The translations under genes were made by a program, and so were the position numbers. The notes beneath the pieces were generated by a model that saw nothing but the letters and a program-made list of their open reading frames with translations, did no database searches and was not told where the DNA came from. Source: Lutispora sp. (GTDB lineage: Bacteria; Bacillota; Clostridia; Lutisporales; Lutisporaceae). Taken from it: a DNA stretch of 39,072 bases. Of the stretch, positions 25,436-32,770 are shown one piece after another. Position 1 is the stretch's first letter. The number at the start of each line of letters is the position of its first letter. The stretch is from contig JAQUTA010000005.1 in NCBI GenBank assembly GCA_028709965.1, forward strand, positions 16,625-55,696, given 5' to 3'.

Positions 25436-26818
25436 TTATTCTTCCTCTTTTAAAAGTCCTTTTCTTTTGACCCAGCCTTCTTTGTTTTCCTGTCTAATCC
25501 TTCCTACAGCAAGATTTGCTTCAGGCACATCTTTTGTCACCGTAGTACCGGCAGCTATATATGAATTCTTGCCAACCACTAGAGGTGCCACTAGATTTAC
25601 ATTGCAACCTATAAAACTGTTATCCATCACCTTTGTTCTGTGCTTTTCTTTACCATCATAATTTACAAATACAACACCACAGCCCAAATTTACTCCATTG
25701 CCCACATCTCCATCACCTACATAGGTGAGATGAGAGGCTTTTGAATGATCTCCAAAATTGGAATTTTTCATTTCAACAAAATCACCAATCTTAGCGTGCT
25801 TACCTATTACATTTCCAGGTCTTAGGTAAGCAAAAGGTCCCACTGTAGTACCTTCCCCTATGCGGCTTTCTAAAACCACAGAATTCTCTACATGAACCCC
25901 GGCACCTATATGACTGTCCGATATGGTGGAATGAGGACCTATGACTGCATCCTCTTCTATATATGAAGTGCCTTTTACCAGGCACCCGGGCAGTATAGTC
26001 ACATCTCTCTCAATTTTTACCCCAGCATCAATGTAAGTATTGCCAACATCAGTAATTGTTACCCCATTTAGCAAATGTCCTTCTATGATTCTTTTTTTCA
26101 TAATAGAAGCAGCTTGAGATAACTGCAGCCTATTATTAACACCCATTATTTCTCCCGAATTTTCAATCTTATAAGCTCCAACACTAAGATTCTTATCATT
26201 AAAAATCTTTATTACATCAGTGAGATAATATTCTCCTTGATCATTATCATTTTTCAGCTCTTTTAATGCTTCTTTCAGCATAGAGCCGTCAAACAAATAT
26301 ATACCTGAATTAACCTCCTTTATCTGCTTTTGCTCTGAATTCGCATCCCTCTCCTCCACAATAGCAGCAACTTTACCATTATTGTCTCTTATAATTCTCC
26401 CATAAGAATAAGGGTTCTCAAAATCAGCTGTAAGAACTGTAGCATTATACCCCCCTTGCTTATGAGCTTTGTATAATTTATTTATTGTTTGTGGTGTCAA
26501 CAGAGGAGTGTCACCATAGAGCACCAAAACATCACGGTCAGTGATAAATTGGGCTGCTTGCATTACAGCATGGCCTGTACCCTTTTGCTGCTTTTGAAGT
26601 GCAAACTTAACCCCTTTAATTGTATCCTGCACTTCTTTGGCTCCATGACCCACTACAACTACTGTATCTGATGCGCCGGCTTCCTTGGCACAATCAACAA
26701 CATGCTCTACCATGGCTTTGCCACAAACCTCATGTAAAACCTTAGGCTTTTTGGAATACATCCTTTTTCCCTCTCCTGCTGCCAATATAATTGCCAGCAT
26801 ATAGGATGTGTTATTCAA
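25436..26818 (-). CDS. glmU: Bifunctional GlmU (glucosamine-1-P acetyltransferase / GlcNAc-1-P uridyltransferase)
   Basis: Makes UDP-GlcNAc for peptidoglycan. The N-terminal nucleotidyltransferase shows LAAGEGKRM at 12-20 and VLYGDTPLL; the C-terminal half is a left-handed beta-helix of hexapeptide repeats (GPHSTISDSHIGAGVHVENS; GEGTTVGPFAYLRPGNVIG) ending with the acetyltransferase region. 460 residues, usual. The start is a TTG at 26816-26818, supported by GAGGGTGG a few bases away; the first ATG (codon 7) has no ribosome site. First gene of the glmU-prs-pth-mfd-prsA run. A -10-like TAGAAT is seen on the minus strand about 50 bases upstream, with no good -35. Confidence 0.97.
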   Translation of the reverse strand: MNNTSYMLAIILAAGEGKRMYSKKPKVLHEVCGKAMVEHVVDCAKEAGASDTVVVVGHGAKEVQDTIKGVKFALQKQQKGTGHAVMQAAQFITDRDVLVLYGDTPLLTPQTINKLYKAHKQGGYNATVLTADFENPYSYGRIIRDNNGKVAAIVEERDANSEQKQIKEVNSGIYLFDGSMLKEALKELKNDNDQGEYYLTDVIKIFNDKNLSVGAYKIENSGEIMGVNNRLQLSQAASIMKKRIIEGHLLNGVTITDVGNTYIDAGVKIERDVTILPGCLVKGTSYIEEDAVIGPHSTISDSHIGAGVHVENSVVLESRIGEGTTVGPFAYLRPGNVIGKHAKIGDFVEMKNSNFGDHSKASHLTYVGDGDVGNGVNLGCGVVFVNYDGKEKHRTKVMDNSFIGCNVNLVAPLVVGKNSYIAAGTTVTKDVPEANLAVGRIRQENKEGWVKRKGLLKEEE

Positions 26819-26935: not shown

Positions 26936-26966
26936 AAAAAAATACCGGAGTCCCAATACTCCGGTA
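26936..26966 (-). terminator. Intrinsic terminator after the Met/Cys-rich gene
   Basis: Nine-bp stem TACCGGAGT/ACTCCGGTA, six-base loop, then TTTTTTT on the minus strand, 29 bases past the stop codon at 26996. Confidence 0.92.
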
Positions 26967-26995
26967 TAATATTTATATTCTTATCTTTTATATTC

Positions 26996-27349
26996 TCATC
27001 TTTTGTAATATGGATGTGGGCACCAATCATGCTGATCTTTCTTCTTTTTGTGTTTATAGTAGTATTCTTCCTTGTCATCGCTGCTATCATCGCTGTCATC
27101 CTCTTCTTCATACCAGTCTTTCATATCCCAATCATCGTAATGTCCCTTATGCTTCATTTTAGTCTCTTCCATATACATAGGCTCTTCCATCATATGCATC
27201 ATGGGACACTTCATCATGCCATAATGCATCATGGGGCACTGCATCATGGGGCATTGCATCATAGGCATATCCATTTCTGGCATTTCCATATCATCCATAT
27301 CCATATCCGGCATACAGTCCTTCGGATTAAGATACTTTTTATCTGCCAT
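26996..27349 (-). CDS. Met/Cys/His-rich acidic small protein, unknown function
   Basis: I do not recognise a named family. The 117 residues have three parts: a Met/Asp-rich section (DMDMDDMEMPEMDMPMM), a set of CPMM repeats (MMQCPMMQCPMMHYGMM, then KCPMMHMMEE) giving Met-Cys-His clusters, and an acidic, Ser/Asp-rich region (EEEDDSDDSSDDKEEYYY) followed by a basic HKKKKDQHDWCPHPYYKR end. No signal peptide or membrane segment. Composition resembles metal-binding or spore-coat proteins. ATG 27347-27349 is preferred because GGAGGT is six bases away; the ATG just before it (27350-27352) is possible. The gene has its own terminator and lies behind the spoVG terminator, so it is a single-gene unit with an unseen promoter. 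The repeat codons make short direct DNA repeats at about 27200-27262. Confidence 0.75.
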   Translation of the reverse strand: MADKKYLNPKDCMPDMDMDDMEMPEMDMPMMQCPMMQCPMMHYGMMKCPMMHMMEEPMYMEETKMKHKGHYDDWDMKDWYEEEDDSDDSSDDKEEYYYKHKKKKDQHDWCPHPYYKR

Positions 27350-27433
27350 CATCTTACCTCCCAATATATTAATACCAATATTATATATATATTCATTGGA
27401 AGGAAAATATGATACTAAAGCAATCTATTAATG

Positions 27434-27468
27434 CAAAAAGCCCCACCCAAATAAATGGAATAGGACTT
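27434..27468 (-). terminator. Intrinsic terminator after spoVG
   Basis: On the minus strand an 11-bp stem with G-U pairs (AAGTCCTATTC with GGGTGGGGCTT), loop of nine, ending in CTTTTTGC. It lies about 20 bases after the spoVG stop. Confidence 0.7.
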
Positions 27469-27488
27469 TAATGACAAGCACTAATTAA

Positions 27489-27752
27489 TTACTCTGCGTC
27501 CTTTACTTTCTCGTATTCCTCAAGTATCGCAGATTGTATTCTCTCTCTAGTTAAAGAATTTATAGGATGCGCTATATCCTTAAACTCCCCATCCGGTGTT
27601 TTTCTGCTGGGCATAGCTATAAAAAGCCCTTCCTGCCCTTCGATAACTTTAATGTCATGAACTACAAATTCATTGTCGAAAGTAACAGATACAACAGCTT
27701 TCATCTTGCCTTCAGCATTCACCTTTCTAATTCTAACGTCAGTTATATTCAT
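27489..27752 (-). CDS. spoVG: Septation/sporulation regulator SpoVG
   Basis: 87-residue nucleic-acid-binding protein, highly conserved: [60 protein letters not shown]. In Bacillus it affects asymmetric septation; elsewhere it is a global regulator. The frame is open 12 codons further upstream, but the ATG at 27750-27752 has AAGGTGG nearby and fits the family start. A consensus sigma-H promoter lies about 50 bases upstream, as in Bacillus, where spoVG is the model sigma-H gene. The Bacillus gene yabJ (RidA) between purR and spoVG is missing here. Confidence 0.97.
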
Positions 27753-27800
27753 CCTGCTCACCACCTTCCCGCCCAAATGCTTTGTCAATTAATAGATAAA

Positions 27801-28739: not shown

Positions 28740-30635
28740 CTAAATTCCATGCTTAATATCTGTAATACTATAATCTTTTATTTTTCTATATAGTGTATTC
28801 CTGCCTATTCCTAAGGCCTTGGCACATGAAGTAATATTCCCGTTATATCTATTCAGCATGGTTAAAATGTATTGTTTCTCCATGGAAGCTAGCGTAAGAG
28901 GTATTTCCTTGGTTTCTGCAATATTCTCTTTATTATTCTTATCTAAGTTTTCATCTATTCCATCAATGGACTCTGTATTTATTATTCTTTCCACGAGATT
29001 TTCTAGTTCTCTTATATTGCCCGGCCATGGTGCTTCCACTAGAGCTTTTATATATTCCTCAGGGATTGAGACTTTTCTTTTGTTAAGCTTTTTAGAAATA
29101 GTAGAAAGGAAATAATCAAGCAAAAGAGGTATATCCCCTTTTCTTTCTCTTAATGGAGGAAGAAACACAGGCAATACATTTAATCTATAAAACAAATCTT
29201 TTCTAAAGTTACCTTTCATTGTTTCATCGGAAAGATTTTTATTTGTTGCAGCAATAATCCTCACATTAACATATATTTGCTTGTAGCTCCCTATACGGGT
29301 TACAACCCCTTCTTCAATTACTCTTAAGAGCTTAATCTGCATATCATTAGGCATCTCACCGATTTCATCTAAAAAAACAGTTCCTCCGTCTGCTATCTCA
29401 AATTTACCTGCATAGCCTCCCCTTCTGGCTCCCGTAAAAGCACCTTCTTCGTATCCAAAAAGCTCAGATTCAATAAGATTCCTCGGTATTGCCCCACAAT
29501 TTACTGCAATAAAGGGCTCGTCCTTTCTTTTGCTATAATTATGTATTGATTGGGCAAAGACCTCCTTGCCTGTACCACTTTCTCCCATGATAAGTATTGT
29601 GGATTTACTATCAGATATTTTTTTGGTGTATTCAATTATCTGAATAAAATTTTTATCCTGCCCAATTATTTTGTCAAAGGAGTATATTGCCTGACTTGCC
29701 GCAATTCTTCCTGCTAGTTTTCTTACCTTGTGAACATCTCTAAAAACGAAAGTAATCTCGCTGATACTATTCCCACTATATATGGGATATAGGCTGGTAT
29801 TGAATTGTAGTTTGTTTTTCCTTGCATTTACTGAAACTTCTTCATTAGTAAAAGTGCCTCCAGTCAGCAAAATGCTTTTTATCTTTTCCCATCCGTCGAT
29901 AAGAAGACCTATGGGTATGCTTTTTATTTCTTTTTCACTATATCCAAACATATCTTCCATGGTAGAATTGGCCATGTTTATTCTTCCTTCTATATTGCAT
30001 GTTATTATGCCTGTATCCATAGAATCCAGAACTGTTTTAAAATGCGTTTTATCGCATATTATTTTATCATTGTATTCGTTATTTTCAATCATCTTTCCTA
30101 TGGCCACTACAGCAGCCACTACCATTCCTAAGGTGTGAGAATGCACTGCATCCGAATATCCTGTAATATCTAATGCACCTACTACTTGCCCCATTTTTAT
30201 TATGGGTGCTGCTGAGCAGGTCCATCTATGATAAGCATCTATAAAATGCTCATCTCCCGATATTTGAACAGGCATCCTCTCAGCGAGGCATGTGCCTATT
30301 GCATTGGTTCCTATGCTCTTCTCATCCATAAAGGCTCCCGGAGCCATCTTCAGCGAATAGGCATCGGATAATATGCTATCATCTCCAATTATGTTCAATA
30401 CGCAGCCTTCTTTATCGGATAGTATTACAAAAAAATCAGAACCCTTAACAAAGTTATAAAGCTCATCCATAAAAGGTAAGGCTGCCAATAAAAGATCCTT
30501 ATTCTCATCAAGCCTCATTTGCAATTCATTGGAGGATAGAATATCCTTGCTGTACATAGTTCCTTTTTTTACTCCATAGGCTATACTCCTATTTAGGGAT
30601 CTATTTATATACTCTCTTTTCCCACTAGATTTCAT
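28740..30635 (-). CDS. Sigma-54-dependent transcriptional activator (GAF-PAS-AAA+-Fis)
   Basis: Enhancer-binding protein of the AcoR-like type, 631 residues. GAF-like N-terminal sensor (about 50-190: [20 protein letters not shown] and [10 protein letters not shown], typical of AcoR-type regulators), a PAS domain (about 200-305: [20 protein letters not shown]), an AAA+ core with Walker A GESGTGKE at 351-358 and the sigma-54 contact loop GAFTGA at 398-403, and a Fis-type helix-turn-helix at the C-terminus ([22 protein letters not shown]). The frame extends 34 codons upstream, but the ATG at 30633-30635 has GGGAGG eight bases away. Because a sigma-54 promoter lies in front of the adjacent AOR gene, this protein is the likely activator of that operon. 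The ligand is unknown. Confidence 0.94.
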
Positions 30636-30666
30636 ATATAAAACCTCCCGATGACTGATTAACTTG

Positions 30667-30695
30667 AGTATACATTTTAATAGGAATAAATGCAA
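30667..30695 (-). promoter_or_regulatory. Sigma-A promoter candidate for the activator gene
   Basis: On the minus strand TTGCAT (30690-30695), 17 bases, TATACT (30667-30672), placed between the moaD-like terminator and the activator ribosome site. Confidence 0.65.
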
Positions 30696-30702
30696 TTTAT
30701 AG

Positions 30703-30739
30703 AAAAAAAATGGCCTGCCAAGAATAAATCTTAGCAAGC
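30703..30739 (-). terminator. Intrinsic terminator of the AOR operon
   Basis: On the minus strand an 11-bp stem (GCTTGCTAAGA with TCTTGGCAGGC, two G-U pairs), loop of five, then CATTTTTTTTC. It lies 12 bases after the stop of the MoaD-like gene and ends the operon before the activator gene. Confidence 0.88.
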
Positions 30740-30751
30740 TATTTTTTTAGT

Positions 30752-30976
30752 TCAACCTCCGCCTACAGGCGGAAATATTGATACTGTGTCTCCTTGCACC
30801 AAAATACTGTCTATATTTGCATCTCTGCCATTTATAAGAAGTATTGAAATCTCCTTAGGGTCTATATTTAGTATTTTGACTGCTTTCTTAATCGTATCCC
30901 CTTCATTCATGTCCAGTAAAACTACCTTGTCTCTGCCTTCTCTTAGATATGCAAAAAGCTTAACCTTGATATCCAT
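30752..30976 (-). CDS. MoaD/ThiS-like sulfur carrier, AOR-associated
   Basis: 74-residue ubiquitin-like protein ending in PPVGGG, i.e. with the C-terminal Gly-Gly that is thiocarboxylated in MoaD/ThiS proteins. N-terminus MDIKVKLFAYLREGRDKVVL is MoaD-like. It begins eight bases after the AOR stop with no good ribosome site, so it is translationally coupled to AOR. In AOR operons such proteins are thought to help make the tungsten-pterin cofactor; whether this one replaces or adds to a general MoaD cannot be seen. Confidence 0.88.
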   Translation of the reverse strand: MDIKVKLFAYLREGRDKVVLLDMNEGDTIKKAVKILNIDPKEISILLINGRDANIDSILVQGDTVSIFPPVGGG

Positions 30977-30982
30977 GGTAAA

Positions 30983-32770
30983 TCATAATCCTAAGCTTTC
31001 TAGTTTTTCCTCAGTAGGAGCACCATCCACCCAACCTCTTAGTTCATAGTATTCAGGTAGAAGCACCGATAGCTTTGTTACATTTCCCTTAGAAGGTCCC
31101 TCAGCTATTTCCTCCTCCAAAAGCCTTTTTGGTAAAGTATCATAAGATCCATCTATACCAGCTTTTAGATTAAATACTCTTTCCAGATTATATATCCTTT
31201 CTCCAGCCCCTATGAGACTCTCACCGGTATGCTGGCTGCCAGTTACAGCATTATATAATTCTGCATAGTCATCTGCACTGAAAGCAAAGGAAGAAAACAG
31301 GCATAGTCCTAATGAATCTATTGCAGCAGTGAGATCCTGGAATGTTTTTGCCCACTGAGCCTTGCCTTCTAAAGCAAATCTATCCAGCTTTACCGGTGAG
31401 CCTAATATTTCAGGAGATATTAAATATCCTCTAACATGGCATCCACCTCTGTTTGAAGTTGCATATTGAACTCCCTGACCCTGTATAGCTCTGGGGTCAT
31501 AAGCTGGTATCTCCAACTTCTTTACACTCATGGAAAGCTCCGGTGCCCCATAGCTTTCGCAAAGCCTGTAGGAGCCCATGCCCAATTTATGACCAAATCC
31601 CTCCCTAGAACCCATTTTTTGAGTCCAGTATATTATAGCCTCTGTGTTACCAAATTTTAAATCCGGTCCAGCCAAATCCTCCTCCTTGATGTAGCCTTTT
31701 TCTCTTAACTCCATGGCTGCTGCTAGAGTTGCTCCTGTTGATATTGTATCTAAGCCATATTCATTGCACCAGAAGTTTGCATCTATAATAGCTTTAATAT
31801 CAGAAATTCCGCAATTGGATCCGAAAGCCCATATGGTCTCATATTCGGGTCCCCCACCCTCACTATCGTGGATCCTTACATATCTCCCACAGCCGATAGG
31901 GCATCTATAGCAGGCTGTTCTTTTGATCAGGTGATCATTGGCCAGGGTTTCTCCGCTTATTTCCTCTGCCTTGTCAAATTGGGACGTCTGGAAATTGTGC
32001 GTTGGGAATACACCGTTTTCATTGATGATATTTACCAATATTGCTGTGCCGTAGGCGGGCAGTCCTGTGCCTGTGACACCATCTTCTTTGATTTGTTTGT
32101 TTAGTTTTGAAACAACTTCCTTTAATTTTTCTTCGTCATATACATTAGTTTTCTTACTTCCTTTAACTACAATAGCCTTCAGATTCTTAGACCCCATAAC
32201 AGCACCAACACCGGAGCGTCCTGCGGCACGATCCTCATCGTTGATAATCGCTGCAATATTGGAGAGCTTCTCTCCTGCAGGTCCTATGGTCAGCACCTTT
32301 GCCTTTTCCCCATGAGCGGTTTTTAATGCCTTAGTGGTCTCTGAAACCAGCTTGCCCCACAGATGCTCCCCATCCCGTATTTCTACTTTGTCATCTTCAA
32401 TATTTATGTATACAGGTTTTTCTGATTTGTCTTCAATAATTATTGCATCGTATCCAGTTGCCTTAAATTCCGCTCCCCAGTAGCCTCCTGAGTTTGAACT
32501 TGCCACAGTGCCGCTTAGGGGCGATTTTGTAACCACCATATACCTTCCTCCTGTAGGAACAGGAGCTCCTGTCAAAGGACCGGTTATTACTATAAGTTTA
32601 TTATCTGGGCTTAACGCATCTACCTTTGGGTCGATTTCATCCAATAGAATTTTTGAGCCAAGACCTCTTCCGCCAATGAATCTTTCTGCATCATGAGTAT
32701 TGATATCTTCCACCTTTACAGTCTTTTCTCTCAGGTTAACTCTTAATATTTTACCATTATACCCGTTCAT
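30983..32770 (-). CDS. aor: Tungsten-containing aldehyde:ferredoxin oxidoreductase
   Basis: Oxygen-sensitive cytoplasmic enzyme that oxidises aldehydes to acids with ferredoxin and can run in reverse at low potential. 595 residues, usual AOR length. N-terminal domain with GGRGLGSKIL at 33-42 and the pterin-binding segment TGAPVPTGGRY; [4Fe-4S] ligands Cys287, Cys290, Cys294 (CYRCPIGC) and Cys490 (GLCLFSSF), with the same spacing as archaeal AOR. Strong AAAGGGGG ribosome site. Expression probably depends on sigma-54 because of the -24/-12 promoter just upstream. Narrower subclass (AOR, FOR, GAPOR or benzoyl-CoA-type) not decided, although AOR proper fits best. Confidence 0.94.
   Translation of the reverse strand: MNGYNGKILRVNLREKTVKVEDINTHDAERFIGGRGLGSKILLDEIDPKVDALSPDNKLIVITGPLTGAPVPTGGRYMVVTKSPLSGTVASSNSGGYWGAEFKATGYDAIIIEDKSEKPVYINIEDDKVEIRDGEHLWGKLVSETTKALKTAHGEKAKVLTIGPAGEKLSNIAAIINDEDRAAGRSGVGAVMGSKNLKAIVVKGSKKTNVYDEEKLKEVVSKLNKQIKEDGVTGTGLPAYGTAILVNIINENGVFPTHNFQTSQFDKAEEISGETLANDHLIKRTACYRCPIGCGRYVRIHDSEGGGPEYETIWAFGSNCGISDIKAIIDANFWCNEYGLDTISTGATLAAAMELREKGYIKEEDLAGPDLKFGNTEAIIYWTQKMGSREGFGHKLGMGSYRLCESYGAPELSMSVKKLEIPAYDPRAIQGQGVQYATSNRGGCHVRGYLISPEILGSPVKLDRFALEGKAQWAKTFQDLTAAIDSLGLCLFSSFAFSADDYAELYNAVTGSQHTGESLIGAGERIYNLERVFNLKAGIDGSYDTLPKRLLEEEIAEGPSKGNVTKLSVLLPEYYELRGWVDGAPTEEKLESLGL

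Follow-up and report, generated by a model that had tools for sequence, protein, structure and literature searches.

The stretch between spoVG and glmU in Lutispora raises the question of whether a short, methionine- and cysteine-rich reading frame is a genuine gene and, if so, what its product may do. Within the window, the 39,072 nucleotides of DNA that were analysed, the frame was confirmed at the coordinates first reported for it, 26996..27349 including the stop codon, and it lies on the minus strand, which the first-pass annotation left unstated. It begins with an ATG at 27349 and encodes 117 amino acids, a call backed by purifying selection and by homologues behind spoVG; with the in-frame ATG that lies one codon further upstream the product would have 118 residues. 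The ribosome-binding site GGGAGG (27357..27362, minus strand) was read from the sequence and is invariant in five Lutispora.

Methionine is the commonest residue of the protein (21%), with Asp and Glu together making up 26% alongside 10 Tyr, 7 His and 5 Cys. Residues 33-51 (27197..27253, minus strand) form a segment with a period of five residues, QCPMM QCPMM HYGMM KCPMM, in which CPMM lies at 33-36, 38-41 and 48-51 and HYGMM at 42-46. The first-pass annotation was mistaken in counting four CPMM repeats, as three are exact and the remaining unit of the period is HYGMM. Three CPMM were found in none of 200,000 composition-preserving shuffles of the 117-residue protein and two in 21. The acidic Ser/Asp stretch and basic tail described earlier are both present: the former, EEEDDSDDSSDDKEE (residues 81-95; 27065..27109, minus strand), contains SDDSSDD and coincides with an acidic block in the aligned members, and the latter is a Tyr/Lys-rich C-terminus ending in CPHPYYKR (26999..27064, minus strand), which takes a WPPxxP..YKK-like form in several other genera. 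The N-terminus, MADKKYLNPKD, is hydrophilic with no signal peptide evident by eye.

Lutispora is placed by NCBI in the Lutisporales, Lutisporaceae, with the window genome (G000) and G003 belonging to the same genus. A homologue was found in 17 of the 22 genomes searched of this order. A nine-member profile matched 14 of the 22, and the homologues of G010 and G014 were added by reading the DNA behind spoVG. That of G011 gave a single-protein match (E 1.3e-5) but was missed by both the nine-member and the 14-member profile, and its standing as a homologue therefore owes more to location than to sequence. The five genomes without a homologue could not be judged, four having no SpoVG match and one having SpoVG at a contig edge. 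In all 16 genomes with the relevant DNA assembled, the homologue follows the spoVG match in the same orientation and begins 119-570 bases further on, with no intervening ORF of at least 40 codons in 13 of them and a small one in G006, G010 and G015; in G004 the gene is truncated by the contig end and spoVG was not found. Each genome with a match holds one copy, which the profile split into two pieces in three genomes. A search for orthologues at the same locus had been advised by the first-pass annotation, which also allowed for there being none anywhere; they were found in 16 of 16 genomes with that DNA, and the 17 homologues contradict the second outcome.

An alignment of 14 members shows what recurs in the family: a start similar to M[ST]DKK, units of Cys-Pro-Met, and an acidic block of Ser and Asp that is in most cases headed by W-[YF]. 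A tail of Tyr and Lys recurs as well, and outside Lutispora most genera have WPP in it. C33, P34, M40 and P49 are invariant columns of this alignment, which is approximate due to low complexity. The number of CPMM units varies: G014 has 0, and the 12 members counted range from 1 to 4, with the maximum of 4 in G007. The repeat therefore does not define the family. Codon changes in 12 chosen pairs among 12 family genes gave pN/pS values of 0.11-0.27, which show purifying selection. Values of dN/dS were 0.04, 0.09 and 0.11 in the three pairs with finite dS, of which two dS values (2.87 and 2.06) were near saturation. The sense frame is open in all 12 family genes, while the shifted sense frames hold 5-17 stops. 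An open frame on the plus strand (27014-27412) is interrupted by one or more stops in 10 of 12 family genes compared and is, by this comparison, an antisense shadow of the gene.

To place the family more widely, the 14-member profile was run against 391 Clostridia genomes. It matched 14 of the 19 that belong to the window's own taxonomic family and none of the other 372. Neighbour loci were obtained with GlmU as the query, the best 80 of 221 being kept; 38 of these showed no SpoVG and were uninformative on the gap. Another 34, in which spoVG precedes glmU and GlmU identity does not exceed 52%, were taken as lying outside the order. None of the 34 has a Met/Cys-rich ORF of at least 40 codons between spoVG and glmU, a stretch of 88-416 bases at 33 loci and of 1800 at the other. 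An initial contig scan with the protein itself gave one stretch fitting a pattern, and none was confirmed. In Pfam the best match to the window protein was Med19 (E 0.0094, 16.4 bits against a cut-off of 25, residues 58-108); NCBIfam gave none for the window protein and one at E 0.078 for one of the 14 members, and a PDB search gave no match up to E 1. Literature searches found nothing relevant by title on CPMM and spores, nothing on such a protein under methionine-rich spore coat proteins, and, for Lutispora, no spore proteome among the matches listed. Within the genomes searched this is, on the sequence comparisons, an order-specific and new family, of a kind expected in spore formers. An AlphaFold model built from a shallow alignment of eight sequences was of low confidence throughout (mean pLDDT 53.1, pTM 0.11), as would be expected of a chain that is probably disordered.

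The place of the gene between spoVG and glmU was borne out by the window ORFs, the neighbour loci and Pfam. SpoVG (27489..27788, minus strand; named by Pfam) is the fixed upstream neighbour, and glmU (25436..26818, minus strand; Pfam nucleotidyltransferase and hexapeptide families) lies downstream in Lutispora. A terminator-like hairpin with a U-run stands behind spoVG (approximately 27435..27470, minus strand; z -4.60), where it aligns in five Lutispora and none of 200 shuffles folds as well. Behind the Met/Cys-rich gene is a second one with a 10-bp stem and a T-run (26936..26967, minus strand; z -2.81), matched by 2 of 200 shuffles; a terminator consensus scan picked up only this downstream hairpin and not the one after spoVG. 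With U-run hairpins on both sides, the gene looks like its own unit. The earlier description of an isolated transcription unit gains support from these hairpins, from the conserved position and from a sigma-E-like element in the genus. In those genera of the order outside Lutispora for which both genes were seen (L045, L046, L048, L050 and L051), spoVG and glmU lie 4.7-5.0 kb apart. It should also be noted that the parts of this gap read in L008 and L182 encode, by eye, a quinolinate synthase-like (NadA) protein, and that G010 has a second, divergent SpoVG-like protein of 60% identity at L184 (G010:C208).

Upstream of the gene, a putative sigma-E-type −35 element, TCATATT (27406..27412, minus strand), was recognised from the alignment of five Lutispora and a promoter matrix, along with a putative −10 element, AATATATA (27386..27393, minus strand), at a spacing of 12, or possibly 14 via a TA repeat. 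The blocks GTATCATATT and TGAATATATATAT are invariant in the five Lutispora with a variable spacer between them, and 47 of 60 columns from the element to the start region are invariant as against 10 of 25 just upstream. In B. subtilis, yabP, spoIVA and spoVB are sigma-E genes. The two blocks resemble the elements upstream of yabP (five genomes of the genus, [AT]CATAT[TA]-N13-CATATAAA) and spoIVA (six genomes, TAATATT-N13-CATATATA), which were read as sigma-E promoters. For C. difficile, a published study describes an ATA motif as the sigma-E −35 and a −10 very similar to that of sigma-K (PMC3789822).

For the matrix, training sites from the order were selected by eye at yabP, spoIVA and spoIIID. 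With it, the upstream region of the gene comes second among 29 chosen window genes, after the training gene yabP, and the score is reached by 30 of 2898 overlapping 150-base segments, training sites and own site included. Low scores were given to spoVB, spoIIE, yabQ and spoVT in the window. Of 15 family upstream regions, only 7 attained a score of at least 13 and the other 8 have no such site; the putative −10 carries an A in place of the usual C. Three genomes contain the strict motif TCATATT-N14-YATAYAH at 21 sites, against 5 in the reversed control. Most of these sites lie inside other genes, and apart from the three that belong to this gene none was seen by eye to precede a known sporulation gene. 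A sigma-E regular expression matched 7 of 16 Lutisporales upstream regions (single-region shuffle p 0.006-0.049), and one for sigma-K matched none of the 16. A loose sigma-E scan of the window gave matches everywhere and was discarded as undiscriminating. A sigma-A reading, TTTGCA-17-TATCAT (9 of 12), was rejected: its TTTGCA shares bases with the end of the spoVG terminator, and the spacing from TTTGCA to TATCAT, by eye, drifts between species. On these upstream sequences a sigma-E promoter is a fair reading for the genus, G009 and G011, and a tentative one elsewhere in the order.

The gene is thus under selection, the sole family match in each genome that has one, fixed at its locus and, in the genus, preceded by a conserved promoter-like element. 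It is considered moderately probable that its product is a lineage-specific structural protein of the Lutisporales spore envelope, either coat or exosporium. SpoIVA is found in 21 of 22 Lutisporales genomes and SpoIIID in 8 of 9 tested, and Pfam identifies spoIIE, spoVT, yabP and yabQ in the window. The spore-coat packing first proposed for the protein is strengthened by the conserved position, the sigma-E-like element in the genus and the spore-forming lineage. As to how it would act, we infer the sigma factor, the time and place of expression, the disorder and the cross-linking as follows. RNA polymerase with sigma-E would transcribe the gene in the mother cell during sporulation, and the small, disordered and highly charged protein, having no evident signal peptide, would stay in the mother-cell cytoplasm. 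It would then stick to the forming coat and be locked there by Cys, Tyr and Lys cross-links, with the Met/Cys-Pro repeats serving as flexible cross-linking or packing units. In their Tyr and Lys content the tails bring to mind CotC of B. subtilis.

Proteins of the spore surface are frequently specific to a lineage and escape standard families, and CdeC of C. difficile is a cysteine-rich spore-surface protein that self-assembles. One report presents unrelated Cys-rich proteins as building spore surfaces in many lineages and as common in spore formers (PMC7333573). CsxA of C. sporogenes and ExsY/CotY of B. cereus, as treated there, are likewise unrelated Cys-containing proteins of spore formers with limited spread. 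The high cysteine number of CsxA/ExsY-type lattice proteins was not found here, there being 5 Cys in 117 residues and 3-5 in 12 members against 25 in CsxA (PMC7333573). Unlike CsxA, ExsY and CdeC, the protein has methionine as its commonest residue and no family match, and its self-assembly is putative. A bolder and rather improbable extension is that CPMM repeats in the spore coat of an anaerobe would serve as sacrificial traps for oxidants or soft metals, a "methionine-armoured" layer distinct in role from disulfide-lattice building. The fixed locus and the predominance of methionine make the protein a simple case for asking if anaerobe spores are shielded by Met-rich repeats from oxidants or metals.

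The first rival to the spore-envelope reading is a cytoplasmic sponge for soft metals (Cu, Ag, Hg), in which Cys-Pro-Met-Met and Met-His clusters would take up monovalent metal and become folded in doing so, as in SilE. SilE is described in one paper as a disordered Met/His metal sponge for silver (PMC5008109), and the window protein is, like SilE and PcoE, small, Met/His-containing and probably disordered. The invariant C33, P34, M40 and P49 of the approximate 14-member alignment and six MxxM in the window protein would suit such a role. However, no metal transport, efflux or sensor gene was recognised by eye among the window ORFs of at least 120 amino acids, nor any metal gene among the 20 window proteins searched in Pfam, and the CPMM number falls to 0 in G014 with 1-4 in 12 members. 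SilE is also periplasmic, belongs to a Gram-negative sil operon and carries repeated MxxHxxxxxHxxM-type motifs (PMC5008109), whereas the window protein has one MxxH/HxxM (0-3 in 12 members), Cys-Pro-Met-Met instead, a hydrophilic N-terminus with no signal peptide by eye, and no metal-resistance operon recognised in the window. The sponge is judged unlikely; soft-metal binding is chemically plausible and could coexist with an envelope role, unsupported as it is by the recognised neighbourhood.

A vegetative role for the product, as a partner or regulator linked to the RNA-binding SpoVG, would account for the fixed place behind spoVG across the order, and is given only a slight probability. The strong U-run hairpin between the two genes and the gene's own conserved upstream element in the genus speak against it. 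So do the 34 of 34 loci outside the order without a Met/Cys-rich ORF in the gap, where SpoVG evidently does without such a protein. A spurious frame, to which the low-complexity composition and the want of a Pfam or NCBIfam match above cut-off might point, has next to no probability and is excluded by the homologues in the order together with the pN/pS values of the 12 chosen pairs and the sense frame open in 12 of 12.

A possible parallel to the spore-envelope reading comes from CPMM proteins elsewhere. Two nearby CPMM codon runs were found in 8 of the 391 Clostridia genomes, six of the window's family and two of other clostridial families. The latter two encode Met/Pro-rich CPMM proteins, at 1396-2202 of L200 and 1231-1716 of L206, both on the minus strand and without a Pfam or NCBIfam match. 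The sigma-K consensus is AC-N16-CATA, and a sigma-K-like element, AC-N16-CATANNNT, begins 57 and 70 bases before the start codons of L200 and L206, respectively (shuffle p 0.024 and 0.031, post hoc). The AC and CATA parts of the consensus are borne out for C. difficile in the study cited above (PMC3789822). Both proteins resemble the window family in their CPMM motifs, methionine richness and mother-cell-type promoter-like element upstream, but differ in lying at other loci, in negative profile scores and, by eye, in being Pro-rich and lacking the acidic-aromatic block. Found after the fact, they are no more than suggestive of an independent parallel.

Elsewhere in the window, between purR and murC (28740-32770), Pfam identifies a sigma-54-type activator and an aldehyde ferredoxin oxidoreductase, neither of which had a match in the ten loci read. 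The distance from purR to murC is 0.25-0.5 kb in G003, G001 and G005. With this distance short and neither gene matched in the loci read, the region 28740-32770 appears to have been inserted in the window genome.
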